A stretch of 39,200 nt of DNA from Rhodohalobacter sulfatireducens (GTDB lineage Bacteria > Bacteroidota > Rhodothermia > Balneolales > Balneolaceae): the NCBI RefSeq assembly GCF_022012475.1, contig NZ_JAKLWS010000038.1, positions 1-39,200 of the forward strand, written 5' to 3'. Both the position numbers and the translations under genes were made by a program. This document shows positions 12,386 to 25,561 of the stretch, one piece after another. Under the pieces are notes generated by a model. The model saw nothing but the letters and a program-made list of their open reading frames with translations. It did no database searches and had not been told where the DNA came from. Positions within the stretch are counted from its first letter, which is position 1; every line of letters starts with the position of its first letter.

Positions 12386-12453
12386 TCTGAACTGTTTTCA
12401 TACGGTTTTATCGTATATGTGATTGGATATTGCTGAATCAGAAAAGACAGAAG

Positions 12454-15186
12454 ATGGACGATAAAAACTGGGAAAAAGTAGAAAATATTATCGATGATCT
12501 GCTGCAACTCCCGGACGATCAGAGAAAATCTTATATCGAAAAAACCTGCGGAGATGACATACAATTAAAGCGAGACGTTAAAGAACTACTCCACTCGATT
12601 TTTGAATCTGAAGGATGGCTTGATGATCCGGAAGAATATAAACGTGATTTCTATCAAGAACTATCCGACGATGAGTTCAAAGCCTTCGATCAATCACTGA
12701 TCGATAAAAAGGTTGGCTCATATACAATTCGAAAAAAGATTGGCGAGGGTGGAATGGGTTCCGTCTTCCTCGGTGAACGAACGGACGGGGAATTTGAACA
12801 CCGTGTAGCTATAAAAATAATTCGTCACGGTCATGCCACTGAGCAGAATATTTTACGTTTTCGGCGCGAACAGCAAATTCTTGCAGGCCTGAATCATCCC
12901 GGAATTGCACGGCTTTTCGATGGTGGATTCACCGAGGATGGATACCCATATATCATCATGGAATATATTGACGGGTTGCCAATGACAGAGTTCTGCCGGG
13001 TGAACAGATGCTCACTTGATGAAAAAATCAAACTGTTTCGAAAGGTTCTCCGGGCGGTTCAATATGCTCATGAAAACCTGGTGATTCATCGTGACCTGAA
13101 ACCGGGTAATATCCTTGTTACCGAGTCCCGTGAAGTAAAGATCCTGGATTTCGGCATTTCCAAACTACTTGAAGAGGAAGAATCACTTAACATCACGAGA
13201 ACCGGATCCCGATTACTGACTCTAAAATATGCCGCGCCGGAGCAGATTCGGCAGACAAATATCACAACCTCAACAGATCTCTACTCTCTCGGGGTGATGT
13301 TTTATGAGTTAATAGCCTCTGAGGCACCTTTCAACCTTGAAGAGCAAACACGTTATGAGAGTGAACAAATAATTCTGAATGATGATCCGGTAAAACCAAG
13401 TGCCAAAGCTTCTTCAAATCGGCAAAAAAATATATTGTCAGGGGATCTGGATGCCATCACTCTTAAGGCCATTCGAAAAGAACCCGAACAGCGATACCGC
13501 ATGGCCAAAGAGTTTCTAAATGAACTGAACAATTATCAAAAAGGCCTGCCGATATCTGCAAGAAACGACACATTTAGGTACAGAGCCCAAAAGTTTTTCA
13601 AGCGAAATCAAAAAGCAATCGCTGTTGGAGTCGGTATCACACTGTTGATGATCGGGTTCGCCTCCTTTTATGCATACAGAATTACCCAGGAACGTAATAT
13701 TGCTCAAATAGAAGCTCAAAAAGCAGAAAATGTAAAAAATTTACTGGTAGAACTATTTCGTGGAAACGATCCAATAACCGGTGATGCGGAATCGATGAGC
13801 CTTGATCAGTTACTGGCAGAAGGCACAGATGAAATCATCAATCGGGATCTGGAACCATCCGTTAAGATAGAGTTACTTTTAACGCTTACCACCATCTATC
13901 AAAACATCACTCAATTTGAAAAAGCTCAGCAGTTAGCCGGAGAAAGCCTGGATTTGAGCCAAGCGCATTTTGGCGAGAACTCAATTCCCGTTGCTGAAAG
14001 TTACATCAAACTCGGAGGTTTGGAACACGATCTCGGGAATTACCGGGAAGGCAGGGAGTATTTTGTAAAGGCTGAGAACGTTTTGGATGAAACTGCATCT
14101 GAATCAAATCCGCTTTATGCCACTCTTTATAACCATTTGGGCCTTTCTGAAGAACAATTAGGTAATTATGAATCGTCTCACGCCTATTTCCAGAAATCAA
14201 TCAATGTTCTTAAAAATCAAGCTGCGGTCGACTCTACTCTCTTCATTAAAGATATAAAAAGTTTGGCACGGGGTTATTACCGAATCGACAATTACCAAAA
14301 AGGAGATTCACTGCTTTTAGCAGCATTAGAGGCCAGTAGGAGCTTTCACGGCGAAGATGATGTAATCACCTCCAGCATATTAGGGGATCTGGGCATGTAT
14401 AAAATGACACAGGCCGAATATGATGAAGCTCGAAATTACTACAATCAATCTTTACAGATTAAGGAACAAGTGTATGGTGATGATGGTCACCCCAACTACA
14501 CAGCCACCCTTACCAATCTTGCCGTTTTAGAAAAGCAGTTGGGAAATTACACGGTGGCGGAATCTCTATTCACAAGGACTATGAAAATTGATGAAAAACT
14601 TTTTGGTGAAGAGCATCCTTATGTGGCTATGTCAAAAAATCACCTGGCAGGAATCCATTTTGAAAGGGATGAATACAAACAAGCATTAGAACTTCAAGAA
14701 GAAGCGATGAATGTATACCTGGAGGCATACGGTGAAGACCACTACTACCTCGGTGCTGTTTTCAAAAATTATGGAAATCTATTATCGATCATGGGAAACT
14801 ATGAAAAAGTTGAATCGTACTTTGAACGATCAAAATCTATCTATGAAGATTTCGAGGAGACGGATAAAGATACATTTGCTAAACTTTATAAAGCAAGGGG
14901 GGAACATTACCTAAGGGTTGGAAAATACGAGGAAGCTGCCAGGCAGTTCGAAAAGGCTGCCGATTATTTTGATGAGTACCATTACGATGAATATAAACGG
15001 GCATCGGCAGAATCACTTATTAAGATGGCTAAAGCCTACGTTGAACTTGAGCGAACAGAATACGCCGATTTAATTTTGAAAGACGTCAAATCAAGGATAG
15101 ATACCTCAAGTGCCTTAGCGAATCACCCAAATATTGATAAACTTTTTTCAGAGACGGTTGATAATCTGTCGAACCGGTTGCATTAA
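12454..15186 (+). CDS. Membrane Ser/Thr protein kinase with C-terminal TPR repeats
   Basis: A 910-aa Hanks-type kinase. I choose the ATG at 12454 (MDDKNWEKVENIIDDLLQL, the usual family N-terminus) over an upstream in-frame TTG at 12430. Kinase parts: glycine loop GEGGMGSVFLG (about 98-108), Lys121 in VAIK, HRDLKPGN with Asp214, DFG Asp232, and APEQ. One membrane helix follows at about 389-410 (GVGITLLMIGFASFYAY), so the C-terminal half probably faces the periplasm. That half (about 460-900) holds repeated TPR/Kinesin-light-chain-like units such as HPNYTATLTNLAVLEKQLGN. All catalytic residues are present, so it should be active. It follows an ECF sigma factor; the ligand sensed by the TPRs is unknown. 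Confidence 0.93.
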   Translation: MDDKNWEKVENIIDDLLQLPDDQRKSYIEKTCGDDIQLKRDVKELLHSIFESEGWLDDPEEYKRDFYQELSDDEFKAFDQSLIDKKVGSYTIRKKIGEGGMGSVFLGERTDGEFEHRVAIKIIRHGHATEQNILRFRREQQILAGLNHPGIARLFDGGFTEDGYPYIIMEYIDGLPMTEFCRVNRCSLDEKIKLFRKVLRAVQYAHENLVIHRDLKPGNILVTESREVKILDFGISKLLEEEESLNITRTGSRLLTLKYAAPEQIRQTNITTSTDLYSLGVMFYELIASEAPFNLEEQTRYESEQIILNDDPVKPSAKASSNRQKNILSGDLDAITLKAIRKEPEQRYRMAKEFLNELNNYQKGLPISARNDTFRYRAQKFFKRNQKAIAVGVGITLLMIGFASFYAYRITQERNIAQIEAQKAENVKNLLVELFRGNDPITGDAESMSLDQLLAEGTDEIINRDLEPSVKIELLLTLTTIYQNITQFEKAQQLAGESLDLSQAHFGENSIPVAESYIKLGGLEHDLGNYREGREYFVKAENVLDETASESNPLYATLYNHLGLSEEQLGNYESSHAYFQKSINVLKNQAAVDSTLFIKDIKSLARGYYRIDNYQKGDSLLLAALEASRSFHGEDDVITSSILGDLGMYKMTQAEYDEARNYYNQSLQIKEQVYGDDGHPNYTATLTNLAVLEKQLGNYTVAESLFTRTMKIDEKLFGEEHPYVAMSKNHLAGIHFERDEYKQALELQEEAMNVYLEAYGEDHYYLGAVFKNYGNLLSIMGNYEKVESYFERSKSIYEDFEETDKDTFAKLYKARGEHYLRVGKYEEAARQFEKAADYFDEYHYDEYKRASAESLIKMAKAYVELERTEYADLILKDVKSRIDTSSALANHPNIDKLFSETVDNLSNRLH

Positions 15187-15911: not shown

Positions 15912-16379
15912 TTATGTAAACAATCTTTGGTCAACTCCCGCTTGCCCCTTTTCTTCAATTTGAAGGTTGCTATAGTCAGGATGATTGGGATTTAAAACAT
16001 AATTGTACTCAATGGGAATTACTACACTCGGAATCTTCAAAGCGAGACTTTTATTTGAGGATAGCCAATCATCGCCAAAATCTTGAGAAGCATGCCCATA
16101 AGGTATTTGATTCCATTCCTCCGGCAAATCAGTCATAGCCGGGGAATCAACAAGAAACTCTGGAACATCTGCCTGGAATACAACACAATGGCGCAGATAA
16201 GATCGGTCGTTTGTCTGAACTAACATTTCCAGGAGAGACAAAGAAAGGCTCCCGGATGTATAAACGGCGGCGAGGCCTTCACTGTTAAACCGCCCTCCAT
16301 AAAGCTTAGCTCCTTCCCCGGAAAAAGCTGAATCTTTATACTCCCGGCGGCATATCCGCCACACACGAATGGTTCCCAT
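15912..16379 (-). CDS. RES-domain toxin (MbcT/ParT-like)
   Basis: A 155-aa RES protein, the usual toxin length. Family marks are VWRICRREY (N-terminal Arg), GAKLYGGRFN, the AVYTSGSLSLSLLEMLV helix with the conserved Glu, and NPNHPDYSNL near the C-terminus with the conserved Ser. RES toxins act on NAD+ (phosphorolysis or hydrolysis) or ADP-ribosylate phosphoribosyl pyrophosphate synthetase, stopping growth until neutralised. It begins two bases after the antitoxin stop, in the usual antitoxin-first order. All key residues appear present, so it looks intact. Which of the two reactions it performs cannot be told from sequence alone. Confidence 0.9.
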   Translation of the reverse strand: MGTIRVWRICRREYKDSAFSGEGAKLYGGRFNSEGLAAVYTSGSLSLSLLEMLVQTNDRSYLRHCVVFQADVPEFLVDSPAMTDLPEEWNQIPYGHASQDFGDDWLSSNKSLALKIPSVVIPIEYNYVLNPNHPDYSNLQIEEKGQAGVDQRLFT

Positions 16380-16381
16380 CC

Positions 16382-16843
16382 CTAAACAGTAATACCGTGT
16401 TGTATCTGCTGAAGTGTACGCTCTACAAGACGGGCACCCGGTTCGGTTTGAACAATATCGAGAGGTTTTTTATTACCAAGAGCATAATTCGGTTGTTTAA
16501 ACCAGGTTGACGCTTTTTCCATGCTTCCAAAAACTTCTGCTGCCAGATCAGTTAATCTGGCAATTCGGTAACTTCGTTCCGATTCATCAGGTGGCAGAAC
16601 ATCCTCTTTTCGGCGGCGATCGAGTGTTCGCGGTGAAATCATCAAGAGTGTTGAAAGCTCCATTCTGGAAATATCTAAACGAGTTTGGATTGTTTGCAAA
16701 ATATCGGAAGCCAACCCCTCTTGAATGTTTGCTACTGCCTTTGAGAGATCCCAGGCAATGAAGGGTTCTTCAACTTTATTACTGTTTTTCTTACTCTTGT
16801 TTGATAAATATTCTTTTTGATGTGAGTTCTTTTCTGCCATCAT
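16382..16843 (-). CDS. Xre/MbcA/ParS-type antitoxin (DUF2384)
   Basis: A 153-aa antitoxin. The N-terminal 40 residues are polar and Lys/Asn-rich. A Xre-like helix-turn-helix follows (about 45-100; LDISRMELSTLLMISPRTLDRRRKE) and then the C-terminal toxin-binding DUF2384 domain (about 105-153; VFGSMEKASTWFKQPNYALG, PLDIVQTEPGARLV). It should bind and block the RES protein and repress its own promoter. Two adjacent Met codons offer starts at 16843 and 16840. A good promoter lies 28 bp upstream. It is divergent from deoC. Confidence 0.9.
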   Translation of the reverse strand: MMAEKNSHQKEYLSNKSKKNSNKVEEPFIAWDLSKAVANIQEGLASDILQTIQTRLDISRMELSTLLMISPRTLDRRRKEDVLPPDESERSYRIARLTDLAAEVFGSMEKASTWFKQPNYALGNKKPLDIVQTEPGARLVERTLQQIQHGITV

Positions 16844-17874: not shown

Positions 17875-17891
17875 TGATTGGTTTGTTGATT

Positions 17892-17971
17892 GTTGTTAGT
17901 GGGTAGTTGTAATTTCGAAATTTTGATATAAGGCTAAACTCATAAACAACAAACAACTGACTACCAACAAC
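17892..17971. repeat. Imperfect inverted repeat between deoC and the ALDH gene
   Basis: Arms at 17892-17910 (GTTGTTAGTGGGTAGTTGT) and 17953-17971 are reverse complements at 15 of 19 positions; as RNA two of the mismatches become G-U pairs. The 42-base loop is AT-rich. The arms are built from GTT/AAC triplets. It fills almost the whole 110-bp gap and could be an attenuating or stabilising hairpin in the deoC-ALDH transcript, or a dispersed intergenic repeat. There is no T-run of terminator type directly after the right arm except a short one just before the ATG. Confidence 0.5.
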
Positions 17972-17984
17972 TAACATCTTTTTT

Positions 17985-19514
17985 ATGTCTGAGACGAAAG
18001 AAAAAACATCCGCTGATGCGACAAACGGAAGTCCTAAACCGACCTCACCCAATGCAGATCTAAAGTTGGATTTTGCTTCTTTTTGGGAATACAGTTCAGC
18101 ACCTGAGAGTAGTGATTTTGTTGAGATCAATGAAAAATATAATCATTTCATTAACGGGGAATTTGTGGAGCCGGAGAAAGGCCGGTACATGAAATCGATC
18201 AATCCGGCAAGTGAAGAGATACTTACAGAGTTTGCCGAAGGCACCTCTGAGGATGTTGATAAAGCGGTTCAGGCTGCTCGCAAAGCATATAACAAAACAT
18301 GGTCGAAACTCAGCGGACGCGAGCGTGGAAAATATCTCTATCGCATAGCACGAATGATCCAGGAGCGATCTCGTGAATTAGCCATCACTGAAACGATGGA
18401 TGGTGGGAAACCAATTCGTGAATCCCGGGATGTGGACGTTCCTCTTGCCGCTGCACACTTTTTCTACTATGCCGGTTGGGCTGATAAGCTGGAATATGCT
18501 TTCCCCGGACGAAAGCCGGAGCCACTTGGCGTTTGTGGACAGATCATCCCATGGAACTTTCCCCTGTTGATGCTGGCATGGAAAATAGCCCCTGCCCTTG
18601 CAACCGGAAACACAGTTGTCTTGAAACCTGCTGAAACCACTCCAATTACCGCCTTGAAGTTTGCTGAAATATGCAGCGATGCCGGTCTACCCGATGGTGT
18701 TGTAAATATTGTAACCGGAGCAGGTCAAACCGGCTCAGCCATTGTCAATCATCAAGGCGTAGATAAAATTGCATTTACCGGCTCTACCGAAGTAGGAAAA
18801 ATCATCCAGAAATCTTTAGCCGGAACTTATAAGAAATACACGCTTGAACTCGGCGGCAAGGGGCCGAATATTGTTTTTGAAGATGCTCCTATCGATCAAA
18901 CTGTCGAGGGAATAATCAATGCCATTTTCTTTAACCAGGGACATGTTTGTTGCGCGGGTTCCCGCCTGCTGATCCAGGAAGGAATTTCTGAGAGATTGAT
19001 TCAAAAACTGAAAGACCGAATGGAAACATTGATTGTAGGCGATCCGCTTGATAAGAATACCGATATTGGAGCCATCAATTCTAAAGCTCAGTTCGAAAAG
19101 ATTAATGAGTACCTGGAGATCGGTGTGAATGAGGGTGCCGAAATCTACCAAAGTAAATGTGACCTTCCTGAAAATGGTTACTTCTGCCGCCCGACAATTT
19201 TCACCGGGGTGGGCCAAAGCAACCGAATTGTCCGAGAAGAAATTTTCGGCCCGGTTCTGACCATTCAAACCTTCCGTACTCCTGATGAAGCGATTGAAAA
19301 AGCAAACAATACACCTTATGGCCTGGCCAGCGGAATCTGGACAGATAAAGGTTCAAAAATCTTTAAAGTCGGCCAGAAAGTTCGTTCCGGTGTGATGTGG
19401 TCCAATACCTATAATAAGTTCGACCCAACCTCCCCGTTCGGCGGTTACAAAGAAAGCGGAATCGGAAGAGAAGGCGGATTGCATGGGTTGTATCCATACG
19501 TAAAGCTAAATTGA
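17985..19514 (+). CDS. Aldehyde dehydrogenase, ALDH16-like catalytic half
   Basis: A 509-aa NAD(P)-dependent aldehyde dehydrogenase. Catalytic Cys322 (FFNQGHVCCAGSR) and general base Glu288 (LELGGKGP) are 34 residues apart as in ALDH2, and the cofactor-binding IIPWNFP and FTGSTEVG segments are present. A 40-aa extension with FASFWEYSSAPES precedes the fold and recalls the N-terminus of ALDH16A1 (MEYGPVPES). The C-terminus, GGYKESGIGREGGLHGLYPY, also matches that family. It sits between deoC and a short ALDH-like gene; the two ALDH genes together have the layout of one two-domain ALDH16 protein. Likely substrate acetaldehyde from the DeoC reaction (inference). Confidence 0.92.
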   Translation: MSETKEKTSADATNGSPKPTSPNADLKLDFASFWEYSSAPESSDFVEINEKYNHFINGEFVEPEKGRYMKSINPASEEILTEFAEGTSEDVDKAVQAARKAYNKTWSKLSGRERGKYLYRIARMIQERSRELAITETMDGGKPIRESRDVDVPLAAAHFFYYAGWADKLEYAFPGRKPEPLGVCGQIIPWNFPLLMLAWKIAPALATGNTVVLKPAETTPITALKFAEICSDAGLPDGVVNIVTGAGQTGSAIVNHQGVDKIAFTGSTEVGKIIQKSLAGTYKKYTLELGGKGPNIVFEDAPIDQTVEGIINAIFFNQGHVCCAGSRLLIQEGISERLIQKLKDRMETLIVGDPLDKNTDIGAINSKAQFEKINEYLEIGVNEGAEIYQSKCDLPENGYFCRPTIFTGVGQSNRIVREEIFGPVLTIQTFRTPDEAIEKANNTPYGLASGIWTDKGSKIFKVGQKVRSGVMWSNTYNKFDPTSPFGGYKESGIGREGGLHGLYPYVKLN

Positions 19515-19525
19515 AATTACAAAAT

Positions 19526-19627
19526 GTCATTCTGAACCTGTCTGCCGAAGTGCAGCGTAGGCAGGCTTGATTCAGAATCTCCGAATATAATTTAATTTAG
19601 GAGATTCCGGCTCAAGGCCGGAATGAC
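19526..19627. repeat. Intergenic palindromic repeat (about 100 bp)
   Basis: GTCATTC at 19526-19532 and GAATGAC at 19621-19627 bound a unit with nested inverted segments. CTTGATTCAGAATCTCC pairs with GGAGATTCCGGCTCAAG at 14 of 17 positions; an inner GCCGAAGTGCAGCGTAGGC part is flanked by CCTGTCTGCC and GGCAGG. This style (a Trp/Gln-free 'rejected' palindrome bounded by GTCATTC) is common between genes in many bacteria. It separates the two ALDH genes and may affect the relative level of the second. Confidence 0.6.
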
Positions 19628-19663
19628 TTCAAGAATTGATAACAGTTAACTGATCCCTGAAAG

Positions 19664-20527
19664 ATGTCTGACAGACTCGAAGTTTTAAAAACTTATAAAA
19701 CATACGTTGGCGGAAAATTTCCGCGAAGTGAATCAAACCGGATATACAGGATAGAGAATCCTGGTGGAAAACATATTGCGAATGCGTGCCGCTGTACCCG
19801 AAAAGATGTCCGCGATGCCGTAGTAGTCGCTCGGTCAGCTTTTGACGGATGGAGCGGACGTTCAGCCTATAACCGCGGACAAATTCTCTACCGGATTGCC
19901 GAAATGTTGGAGGGGCGAAAAGATCAATTTGTAAATGAACTCGAACTACTCGGAGCGAAAAAGAAGAATGCACAAAAAGAAATCGAAATATCGATCGACC
20001 GGCTGATTTATTATGCGGGCTGGACCGACAAAATCAGCCAGGTGTTTGGAACTGTGAACCCGGTTGCAAGTTCACATTTTAACTTTAGCATGCCGGAACC
20101 GACGGGTGTCGTTGGAATTATTGGCCCGGATGAATCTCCACTTCTGTCGATCGTGTCATTAGTTGCACCTGTTATAGCCTGCGGAAACAGTTGCATCATT
20201 CTGGCCTCAACTGAGAATCCTCTTTCTGCGGTCAGCTTTGGTGAGGTTCTTCATGCCTCCGATGTGCCGGCCGGAGTTGTAAACATCCTGACCGGCAATC
20301 GCGATGAGATGGTTAACCACCTTACGACTCATATGGACGTAAATGCCATTTTCAATGCAATTAACGATTCAGAAACCAAGAAACAATTGGATGAAAATGC
20401 ATCTATCAGTGTGAAGCGGGTTAAGCATTATTCACAATCGGACTGGAGTGAAGAGAAGCATGAAAACCCTTACCTGATTCTTGATTTTATGGAGACCAAA
20501 ACCACCTGGCATCCCGTTGGAGCTTAA
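19664..20527 (+). CDS. Truncated, non-catalytic ALDH-like protein (ALDH16 second-domain-like)
   Basis: A 287-aa protein matching only the first 55-60% of an aldehyde dehydrogenase fold: YVGGKFPRSESNRIY, a conserved helix ending AYNRGQILYRIAEML, and the cofactor-domain segments GVVGIIGPDESPLL and PAGVVNILTG. The catalytic Glu and Cys regions are missing. Its end, ETKTTWHPVGA, resembles the very C-terminus of ALDH16A1 (TKALWLPMG, from memory), whose second domain is likewise short and inactive. So this is probably not a decayed gene but the natural partner of the preceding ALDH. The frame is clean and codon use is ordinary. Likely role: structural or regulatory subunit. Confidence 0.82.
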   Translation: MSDRLEVLKTYKTYVGGKFPRSESNRIYRIENPGGKHIANACRCTRKDVRDAVVVARSAFDGWSGRSAYNRGQILYRIAEMLEGRKDQFVNELELLGAKKKNAQKEIEISIDRLIYYAGWTDKISQVFGTVNPVASSHFNFSMPEPTGVVGIIGPDESPLLSIVSLVAPVIACGNSCIILASTENPLSAVSFGEVLHASDVPAGVVNILTGNRDEMVNHLTTHMDVNAIFNAINDSETKKQLDENASISVKRVKHYSQSDWSEEKHENPYLILDFMETKTTWHPVGA

Positions 20528-24376: not shown

Positions 24377-25561
24377 CTATGGCTTACCACCACCAACAAT
24401 TTTCACTGCATCGAAACCTGCAATCGATTCACCATCATTGGTTTTACCGATCAGCCATCCATTCAAATCACCACTGACAAGGCCGGTGTCTTGTGTTGGA
24501 AAATGACCCAAAAAGTCAGGTATTCCATCACCATTTACATCTTCTATGTGGCCATCGCCATGAGCAAGTCTCGCACCTGCGTCAGATGTCACTTCACTTA
24601 GAGCTCCAAATCGAACCGTTACAGGATCGATTGTGGTTGCATCAAAATCTTCACTTCCTAAAATAGCCACAGGTATTACACCTTTGTTGTTTGGGTTGAT
24701 TGAATTTGGTTCGCCTTCTGGTTTAATATCAACTCCTACTGCAGTTGGACAAATAGCCTCTGCAATATCTGAGAAAACTGTCACAAGAGTATTAATGTCT
24801 TGAACATCAAAAGCATCCCCCGGTGCAGAAGCATACCCTGTCATAGCTGGCACATTGGCTCCTTGCAGAGCAATCGTAAATATTCGAATACCTGCATTTT
24901 TTGCATCAGTTGCAGCATTATTTGTTTCTGTTTGCACAACACTTGATGACGCTGTTACTACATTGCCATTGCTGTCATAATAGCGATTTGCGAATCCGTC
25001 AGATAAAACAACCATGACTTTTGTTGCATTATCACGGTCAAATCCACTTGGATTAGTATCCACATTACCAAACAAGCTTTCATCCCCGGTTAGCTCTTCA
25101 GCTCCATAAATAATTCCACCTTGAATATTTGTCCATGCGATTGGTGTCAAATCATCAATCTCTTGGTTCAGTGTACTTTGTCCCGTTGGGTCCATAATCG
25201 TAAGATCCAGGTTACGTTGAGCTGTGGTTGAAAAGCTAATTAATGCTCCTTTATCACTACTGCTAAGTTCAGCGACAAGGGCCTTTGCTCCATCTTTAGT
25301 AGCCTGTAATCTAGTACCGGAATTCGATCCAGAAATATCAATTACCAGAGAGACGTCAATTACGGCCGCCTCGCAAACAGGTGCCAAGTCCCCTTCATGA
25401 TTAGATCGCTGCATTTCTTCAAAGTCAGCTGAAGATAGTGAGTTCCCATTGTCCACAACTGTAGAATCACAACTTGTGAAAATGATAACTAATGCTAATA
25501 CTGTATAGACCTTAAAATGGCGATACCATGACATATAGTTAAGTTCTCTACTATTATTCAT
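24377..25561 (-). CDS. von Willebrand factor A lipoprotein with calcium-binding-type C-terminal domain
   Basis: A 394-aa surface lipoprotein. Lipidation Cys31 ends IIFTSC. The start at 25561 is preferred over an in-frame ATG at 25534 because AGGAGA lies seven bases upstream. A vWA domain (about 66-265) has the MIDAS motif DISGS (75-79) and VVLSDGFANRYYD, so it can bind a divalent ion and a protein ligand. The C-terminal 110 residues carry VDIKPEGEPNSINPNNKGV, a run ending ILGSEDFDATTIDP, and an Asp-rich DVNGDGIPDF loop; this module recurs in secreted proteins of many bacteria, often near the C-terminus, and looks like a calcium-binding beta domain. It is monocistronic with its own terminator. 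Likely role: adhesion or surface assembly (inference). Confidence 0.85.
   Translation of the reverse strand: MNNSRELNYMSWYRHFKVYTVLALVIIFTSCDSTVVDNGNSLSSADFEEMQRSNHEGDLAPVCEAAVIDVSLVIDISGSNSGTRLQATKDGAKALVAELSSSDKGALISFSTTAQRNLDLTIMDPTGQSTLNQEIDDLTPIAWTNIQGGIIYGAEELTGDESLFGNVDTNPSGFDRDNATKVMVVLSDGFANRYYDSNGNVVTASSSVVQTETNNAATDAKNAGIRIFTIALQGANVPAMTGYASAPGDAFDVQDINTLVTVFSDIAEAICPTAVGVDIKPEGEPNSINPNNKGVIPVAILGSEDFDATTIDPVTVRFGALSEVTSDAGARLAHGDGHIEDVNGDGIPDFLGHFPTQDTGLVSGDLNGWLIGKTNDGESIAGFDAVKIVGGGKP

Follow-up and report, generated by a model that had tools for sequence, protein, structure and literature searches.

A two-gene ALDH16 encoded beside deoC in Rhodohalobacter sulfatireducens and other bacteria

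We found that two neighbouring genes of Rhodohalobacter sulfatireducens, here called A and B, encode a split ALDH16, since their products best match two parts of one protein, the Loktanella aldehyde dehydrogenase (ALDH) of PDB entry 6mvr. Because two open reading frames are present, the first closed by a TGA stop codon and followed by a 149-base spacer, this is a two-gene variant and not a canonical ALDH16. Bacteria of several phyla share this two-gene form, which hints at a role for an orphan family. We consider it likely that deoC, A and B form an operon, that ALDH16 is made here as two proteins, and that these assemble into an (AB)2 particle which oxidises the acetaldehyde released by DeoC.

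The locus and the identity of its products

The window, by which we mean the whole 39,200-nucleotide stretch analysed, is contig 70 of a 5.1 Mb genome. It carries the three genes in the order deoC-A-B, all on the plus strand (Table 1). DeoC scored 197.8 bits against NCBIfam TIGR00126 (cut-off 117.3) and also matched Pfam DeoC, and the solved structures closest to it are deoxyribose-phosphate aldolases; an in-frame TTG at 16801 could extend its open reading frame upstream. The repeat in the A-B spacer probably lies outside the function of the pair. This spacer also holds an imperfect inverted repeat (arms 19566-19590 and 19592-19616), and an imperfect 25-base inverted repeat in the deoC-A spacer (arms 17884-17908 and 17952-17976) is perhaps another repeat element. 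Directly upstream of deoC, on the opposite strand, adjoining genes for a RES-domain protein and an Xre/MbcA/ParS-type antitoxin (15912-16843) form, by Pfam, a RES-Xre toxin-antitoxin pair. The window further encodes a 918-aa Ser/Thr protein kinase with many TPR repeats (12430-15186, plus strand) and a von Willebrand factor type A domain protein (24377-25561, minus strand).

Table 1. Features of the deoC-A-B locus (window coordinates).
Feature	Position	Strand	Remarks
deoC, deoxyribose-phosphate aldolase, 302 aa	16966..17874	+	NCBIfam, Pfam and PDB matches
Subunit A, catalytic ALDH; N-terminal extension of ALDH16 type, oligomerisation hairpin shortened; 509 aa	17985..19514	+	
A-B spacer with interspersed repeat copy	19515..19640	.	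8 more partial copies in the genome
Subunit B, free-standing second domain of ALDH16, no catalytic domain, 287 aa	19664..20527	+	

The best PDB match of A was 6mvr, with 568 bits for the chain against 446 for the next family. From residue 34, including the extension 'WEYSSAPES', A aligned with 6mvr residues 11-475, and within this alignment A residues 34-52 match the ALDH16-type N-terminal extension from 6mvr residue 11 on. A covers almost the entire Pfam Aldedh profile, all 50 aligned A sequences have the catalytic Asn, Lys, Glu and Cys, and structure comparison of the predicted model found the whole catalytic fold; the first-pass annotation of A as a full ALDH with an ALDH16-like N-terminal extension is thereby borne out. 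The three best Foldseek matches of the model (mean pLDDT 81) were ALDH16 entries. Residues 1-36 and 475-492 are modelled poorly, but as the alignment behind the model held only 28 sequences, we do not read the weak 475-492 segment as a need for B. Against NCBIfam, A matched diverse ALDHs, the best 25 matches all lying under their cut-offs, and no ALDH16 model appeared among the NCBIfam and Pfam matches listed. A and B share 32% identity over 225 columns.

B found its best PDB match in residues 501-767 of the same 6mvr, at 219 bits against 107 for the next family, and a profile built from 34 B sequences gave 292 bits to ALDH16 and 156 to the next family. By sequence, the second domain of ALDH16 is a closer match to B than any ordinary ALDH in the PDB. 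The Pfam Aldedh profile was matched only at positions 4-232 of 461. HMMER places the C-terminus of B, METKTTWHPVGA, on the end of 6mvr, in agreement with the earlier proposal that B ends like the ALDH16 second domain. The B model (mean pLDDT 92) likewise had ALDH16 entries as its top three Foldseek matches; VIA-align, with Z up to 37.9 for ordinary ALDHs and up to 36.7 for ALDH16, does not rank ALDH16 over ordinary ALDHs for B. In the VIA-align superpositions B spans an ordinary ALDH from its start to its last strand (e.g. residues 7-481 of 4nmj), and the predicted structure resembles an ALDH with its catalytic domain excised. B is, as a separate protein, a second ALDH-like domain (Rossmann plus flap) without the catalytic domain.

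The segment with the catalytic Cys was absent from B in 50 of 50 aligned sequences; the column of the catalytic Glu is not conserved among them and the other catalytic positions vary. The earlier observation on these residues of B is confirmed. For 'inactive' we would rather say that B lacks the catalytic domain, as it is not a point-mutated ALDH.

Complementary loss, selection and descent

We compared A and B in an alignment of 50 A sequences, 50 B sequences (36 split and 14 fused of each) and 12 ordinary ALDHs. The oligomerisation hairpin, measured between the ADK and PLGV motifs, has 9-12 residues in A against 19-22 in ordinary ALDHs, and 22 (split) or 19 (fused) in B, so that A overlaps neither B nor the ordinary enzymes. 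The tail after the GREGG arginine is 13-15 residues long in 45 of 50 A sequences and 20-37 in ordinary ALDHs, which indicates that A as a rule lacks the last strand. Three of the 48 scorable A tails, all from split pairs, have 20, 30 and 49 residues and lie within or above the ordinary range; two fused A rows, cut at the end of the BLAST hit, could not be scored. B ends in the last strand (KTTWHP). The structural elements are named here as is usual for ALDHs.

A thus keeps the catalytic residues and has a shortened hairpin, and B keeps the hairpin and the last strand and has no catalytic domain: the two are complementary. It is as if one ALDH dimer had been divided in two, one half being catalytic with its dimer elements shortened, the other a dimer half devoid of the catalytic domain, and we see in this division a clear example of complementary loss.

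B is under purifying selection. Raw pN/pS for six pairs was 0.09-0.22 in B and 0.04-0.13 in A, and 47 columns are invariant among 34 diverse B proteins. In a tree of A (36 split sequences, 14 fused, 12 ordinary ALDHs as outgroup; quick search with SH-aLRT only), the split forms made one clade, the fused forms another, and both joined as a third (SH-aLRT 99 each), with the caveat that the long branches of the ordinary ALDHs meet there. Since split and fused forms are sister clades, fusion and fission are both possible. A tree of the NAD-binding half returned B as one clade (100) and A as one clade (95), with the split/fused fork present in A (94, 99) and in B (89, 99); A and B accordingly parted before the split and fused forms diverged. 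An origin of B by tandem duplication is at most a possibility, as the midpoint-rooted tree does not show A as the nearest relative of B. Distance correlations over 72 loci were 0.897 for A-B, 0.890 for A-DeoC and 0.856 for B-DeoC (partial correlations 0.574, 0.535 and 0.285), which hardly favours A-B above A-DeoC.

Distribution and the deoC neighbourhood

Full-length B occurs in 52 of 58 surveyed genomes of the window's order, its own included, at 49-89% identity in the others, which makes B more than a chance product; orthologues of about the same length are also found in other phyla. Together with the closer sequence match of B to ALDH16, this goes against two of the refuting conditions set in the first-pass annotation. 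In the six genomes of the order without B (G006, G013, G022, G026, G036 and G054), A gave no match at E 1e-60 in five, and G013 has two ordinary ALDHs with 41-42% identity to A. The sole DeoC of all six is of a different, shorter type (34-38% identity), as if DeoC type and ALDH16 had been exchanged together.

Searches with B matched 58 of 296 genomes in the phylum of the window, Bacteroidota as GTDB defines it (54 split, 4 fused; E 1e-36), 39 of 349 in Pseudomonadota (38 fused, 1 split; E 1e-33) and 63 of 246 in Actinomycetota (E 1e-33), where 61 were kept and counted as split. The two dropped, G742 and G831, were judged ordinary ALDHs from their short match range. ALDH16 is thus present in 158 of 891 genomes, 116 split and 42 fused. 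These counts include the centre of each survey, G338 and G339 having been picked because they carry B and G338 being the sole split case in Pseudomonadota; without the three centres they become 155 of 888 (113 split, 42 fused).

Within the 296 genomes of the phylum, A, B and the long DeoC co-occur in an identical set of 58. B is found in 25 of 139 genera, and because 42 of the 58 carriers belong to the window's order, the independent cases are far fewer. A matched at E 1e-122 in 62 genomes, namely the B carriers plus G061, G175, G211 and G254, whose matches start at residue 50-54 with 46-48% identity and were taken as ordinary ALDHs. DeoC matched at E 1e-45 in 61, the B carriers plus G226, G275 and G282, which have a DeoC of the long kind without the A-B pair.

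We also read the best 80 named loci, which are top scorers for a mostly split query, many of them from metagenome-assembled genomes, and no measure of frequency. They include Bacteroidota, Streptomyces and other actinomycetes, Planctomycetota, Verrucomicrobiota, Neomarinimicrobiota, a spirochaete and Gammaproteobacteria; Balneola and Balneolaceae are the nearest named relatives by both the A tree and the B loci. A and B shared the stretch in 68 of the 80, and deoC-A-B, with all genes on one strand, was read in 60. The A-B gap was at most 30 bases in 39 of the 68 and above 300 in seven; at two loci, L135 and L092, A is separated from B on the same strand by 3.6 kb and 1.4 kb. In ten loci B stood alone and in two A was cut by the contig end; A was nevertheless found somewhere in the genome for all 11 B loci tested, among them four of the ten.

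For Actinomycetota we read 56 stretches from the 61 genomes: 51 were deoC-A-B, two were A-B without deoC and three were cut. deoC therefore lies upstream in 51 of 53 uncut split stretches, and the two exceptions had room for it (a 57th stretch, that of G742, showed an ordinary ALDH and is outside this count). Long open frames of up to 1154 codons had suggested fusions in this phylum; they were rejected on reading the stretches, where A and B lie in different frames, or in the same frame number with an open frame too short for both, and we put them down to high G+C. In G005, a close relative, the A gene appears as two overlapping open reading frames in different frames (L008, 1-1381), a frameshift or an assembly error.

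The fused forms have the same neighbour. Among 39 fused stretches from 38 Pseudomonadota genomes, deoC was upstream in 38 of 38 uncut cases (one was cut), and it was likewise upstream at the four fused loci of the window's phylum and at ten fetched fused plasmid loci. Seven annotated fused plasmid loci carry deoC (seven), ribokinase (five), a sugar ABC permease (five), aldose epimerase (four) and RbsD/FucU (two), neighbours consistent with a pathway that imports and consumes a pentose, for example deoxyribose. The genes may also stand apart with all three present, spread over 11 kb in G314 and on different contigs in G070, G090 and G178. The split-ALDH16 reading and the tie to deoC put forward in the first-pass annotation hold up in our surveys, by the shared 58 of 296 genomes and by synteny in Actinomycetota and Pseudomonadota. 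We know of no physiological substrate established for a bacterial ALDH16, and deoC beside both split and fused forms offers a pathway candidate for the family.

Proposed role and relation to known systems

DeoC converts deoxyribose 5-phosphate to glyceraldehyde 3-phosphate and acetaldehyde. Acetaldehyde is named as its product in PMC6365646 and PMC8346489. An active/inactive heteromer of A and B is strongly indicated by their complementary domain loss and co-occurrence. In the mechanism we propose, DeoC would split deoxyribose 5-phosphate and release acetaldehyde, and A would be the catalytic subunit. With its shortened hairpin and usually no last strand, A could probably not form the classic ALDH homodimer. 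B would instead dock on A at the position of the second subunit of that dimer, as the C-terminal domain does in fused ALDH16, and two A-B pairs would make an (AB)2 particle. This particle most likely oxidises acetaldehyde to acetate with NAD+, which would pull the reversible aldolase forward and clear a toxic product.

The same heteromer might act on another aldehyde, e.g. glyceraldehyde, glyceraldehyde 3-phosphate or open-chain deoxyribose, a minority possibility in our judgement: acetaldehyde is pointed to by the neighbourhood only, and the sub-threshold NCBIfam matches of A spread over diverse ALDHs. Against this, deoC is the constant neighbour of split and fused ALDH16, and acetaldehyde is the sole non-phosphorylated product of DeoC. 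That B works apart from A, for instance as a co-expressed regulator or binding protein, would suit two separate genes that are unlinked in some genomes. This we hold to be very improbable, given that B is fused to A in 42 genomes, retains just those elements that A has lost and is accompanied by A in each genome tested.

The missing catalytic half of B and the repeat in the A-B spacer could suggest that B is an ordinary ALDH in decay, or that a frameshift or the repeat has broken a single gene into A and B. We give such an origin practically no weight and have rejected it: two separate open reading frames are seen in 54 genomes of the phylum and in 61 Actinomycetota genomes, the frames of A and B differ or are too short to join the two, B shows purifying selection and invariant columns, and the split forms are one clade. 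Returning to the heteromer that oxidises acetaldehyde, we add a bolder extension that seems to us unlikely, namely that ALDH16 is a dissociable heteromer of DNA-sugar catabolism in which B, as a dedicated docking subunit, also holds DeoC, so that the aldolase hands acetaldehyde over to the dehydrogenase. Were it true, the ancestor of human ALDH16A1 would have been a partner of DERA that cleared acetaldehyde, in keeping with the connection of the human protein to HPRT1 and urate reported in PMC10650815.

Among the matches listed in searches of open PMC papers, none appeared to treat a split ALDH16 or a link of ALDH16 to deoC, and those for ALDH16 with deoxyribose seemed unrelated; novelty in print is provisional. 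The split form lets the catalytic part and the extra domain be made separately, so that the role of the extra domain can be asked directly.

The closest known system is the fused bacterial ALDH16 of Loktanella (6mvr, 6mvs, 6mvt and 6mvu), which has its parts in the order of A followed by B and shares with the pair the catalytic domain, the N-terminal extension and a C-terminal domain without the catalytic part. Identity to it in structure alignments is 51-52% for A and 37% for B. The Loktanella enzyme is one chain, whereas here two genes of a separate clade are found; the fused ALDH16 loci read in this study, the Loktanella locus not being among them, also carry deoC upstream. In the fused enzyme, according to PMC8160307, the C-terminal domain mimics quaternary contacts and the dimer mimics an ALDH tetramer. 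Human ALDH16A1, compared by its description in PMC8160307 and PMC10650815, likewise has the two-part ALDH16 architecture but is fused and described as lacking catalytic residues, which A possesses; its substrate and role are given as unknown in PMC10650815. Ordinary homo-oligomeric ALDHs such as ALDH1 and ALDH2 share the whole catalytic fold with A, and their NAD-binding part and last strand are matched by B. In those enzymes each subunit holds the catalytic domain and the oligomerisation elements together, whereas here they are divided between A and B.
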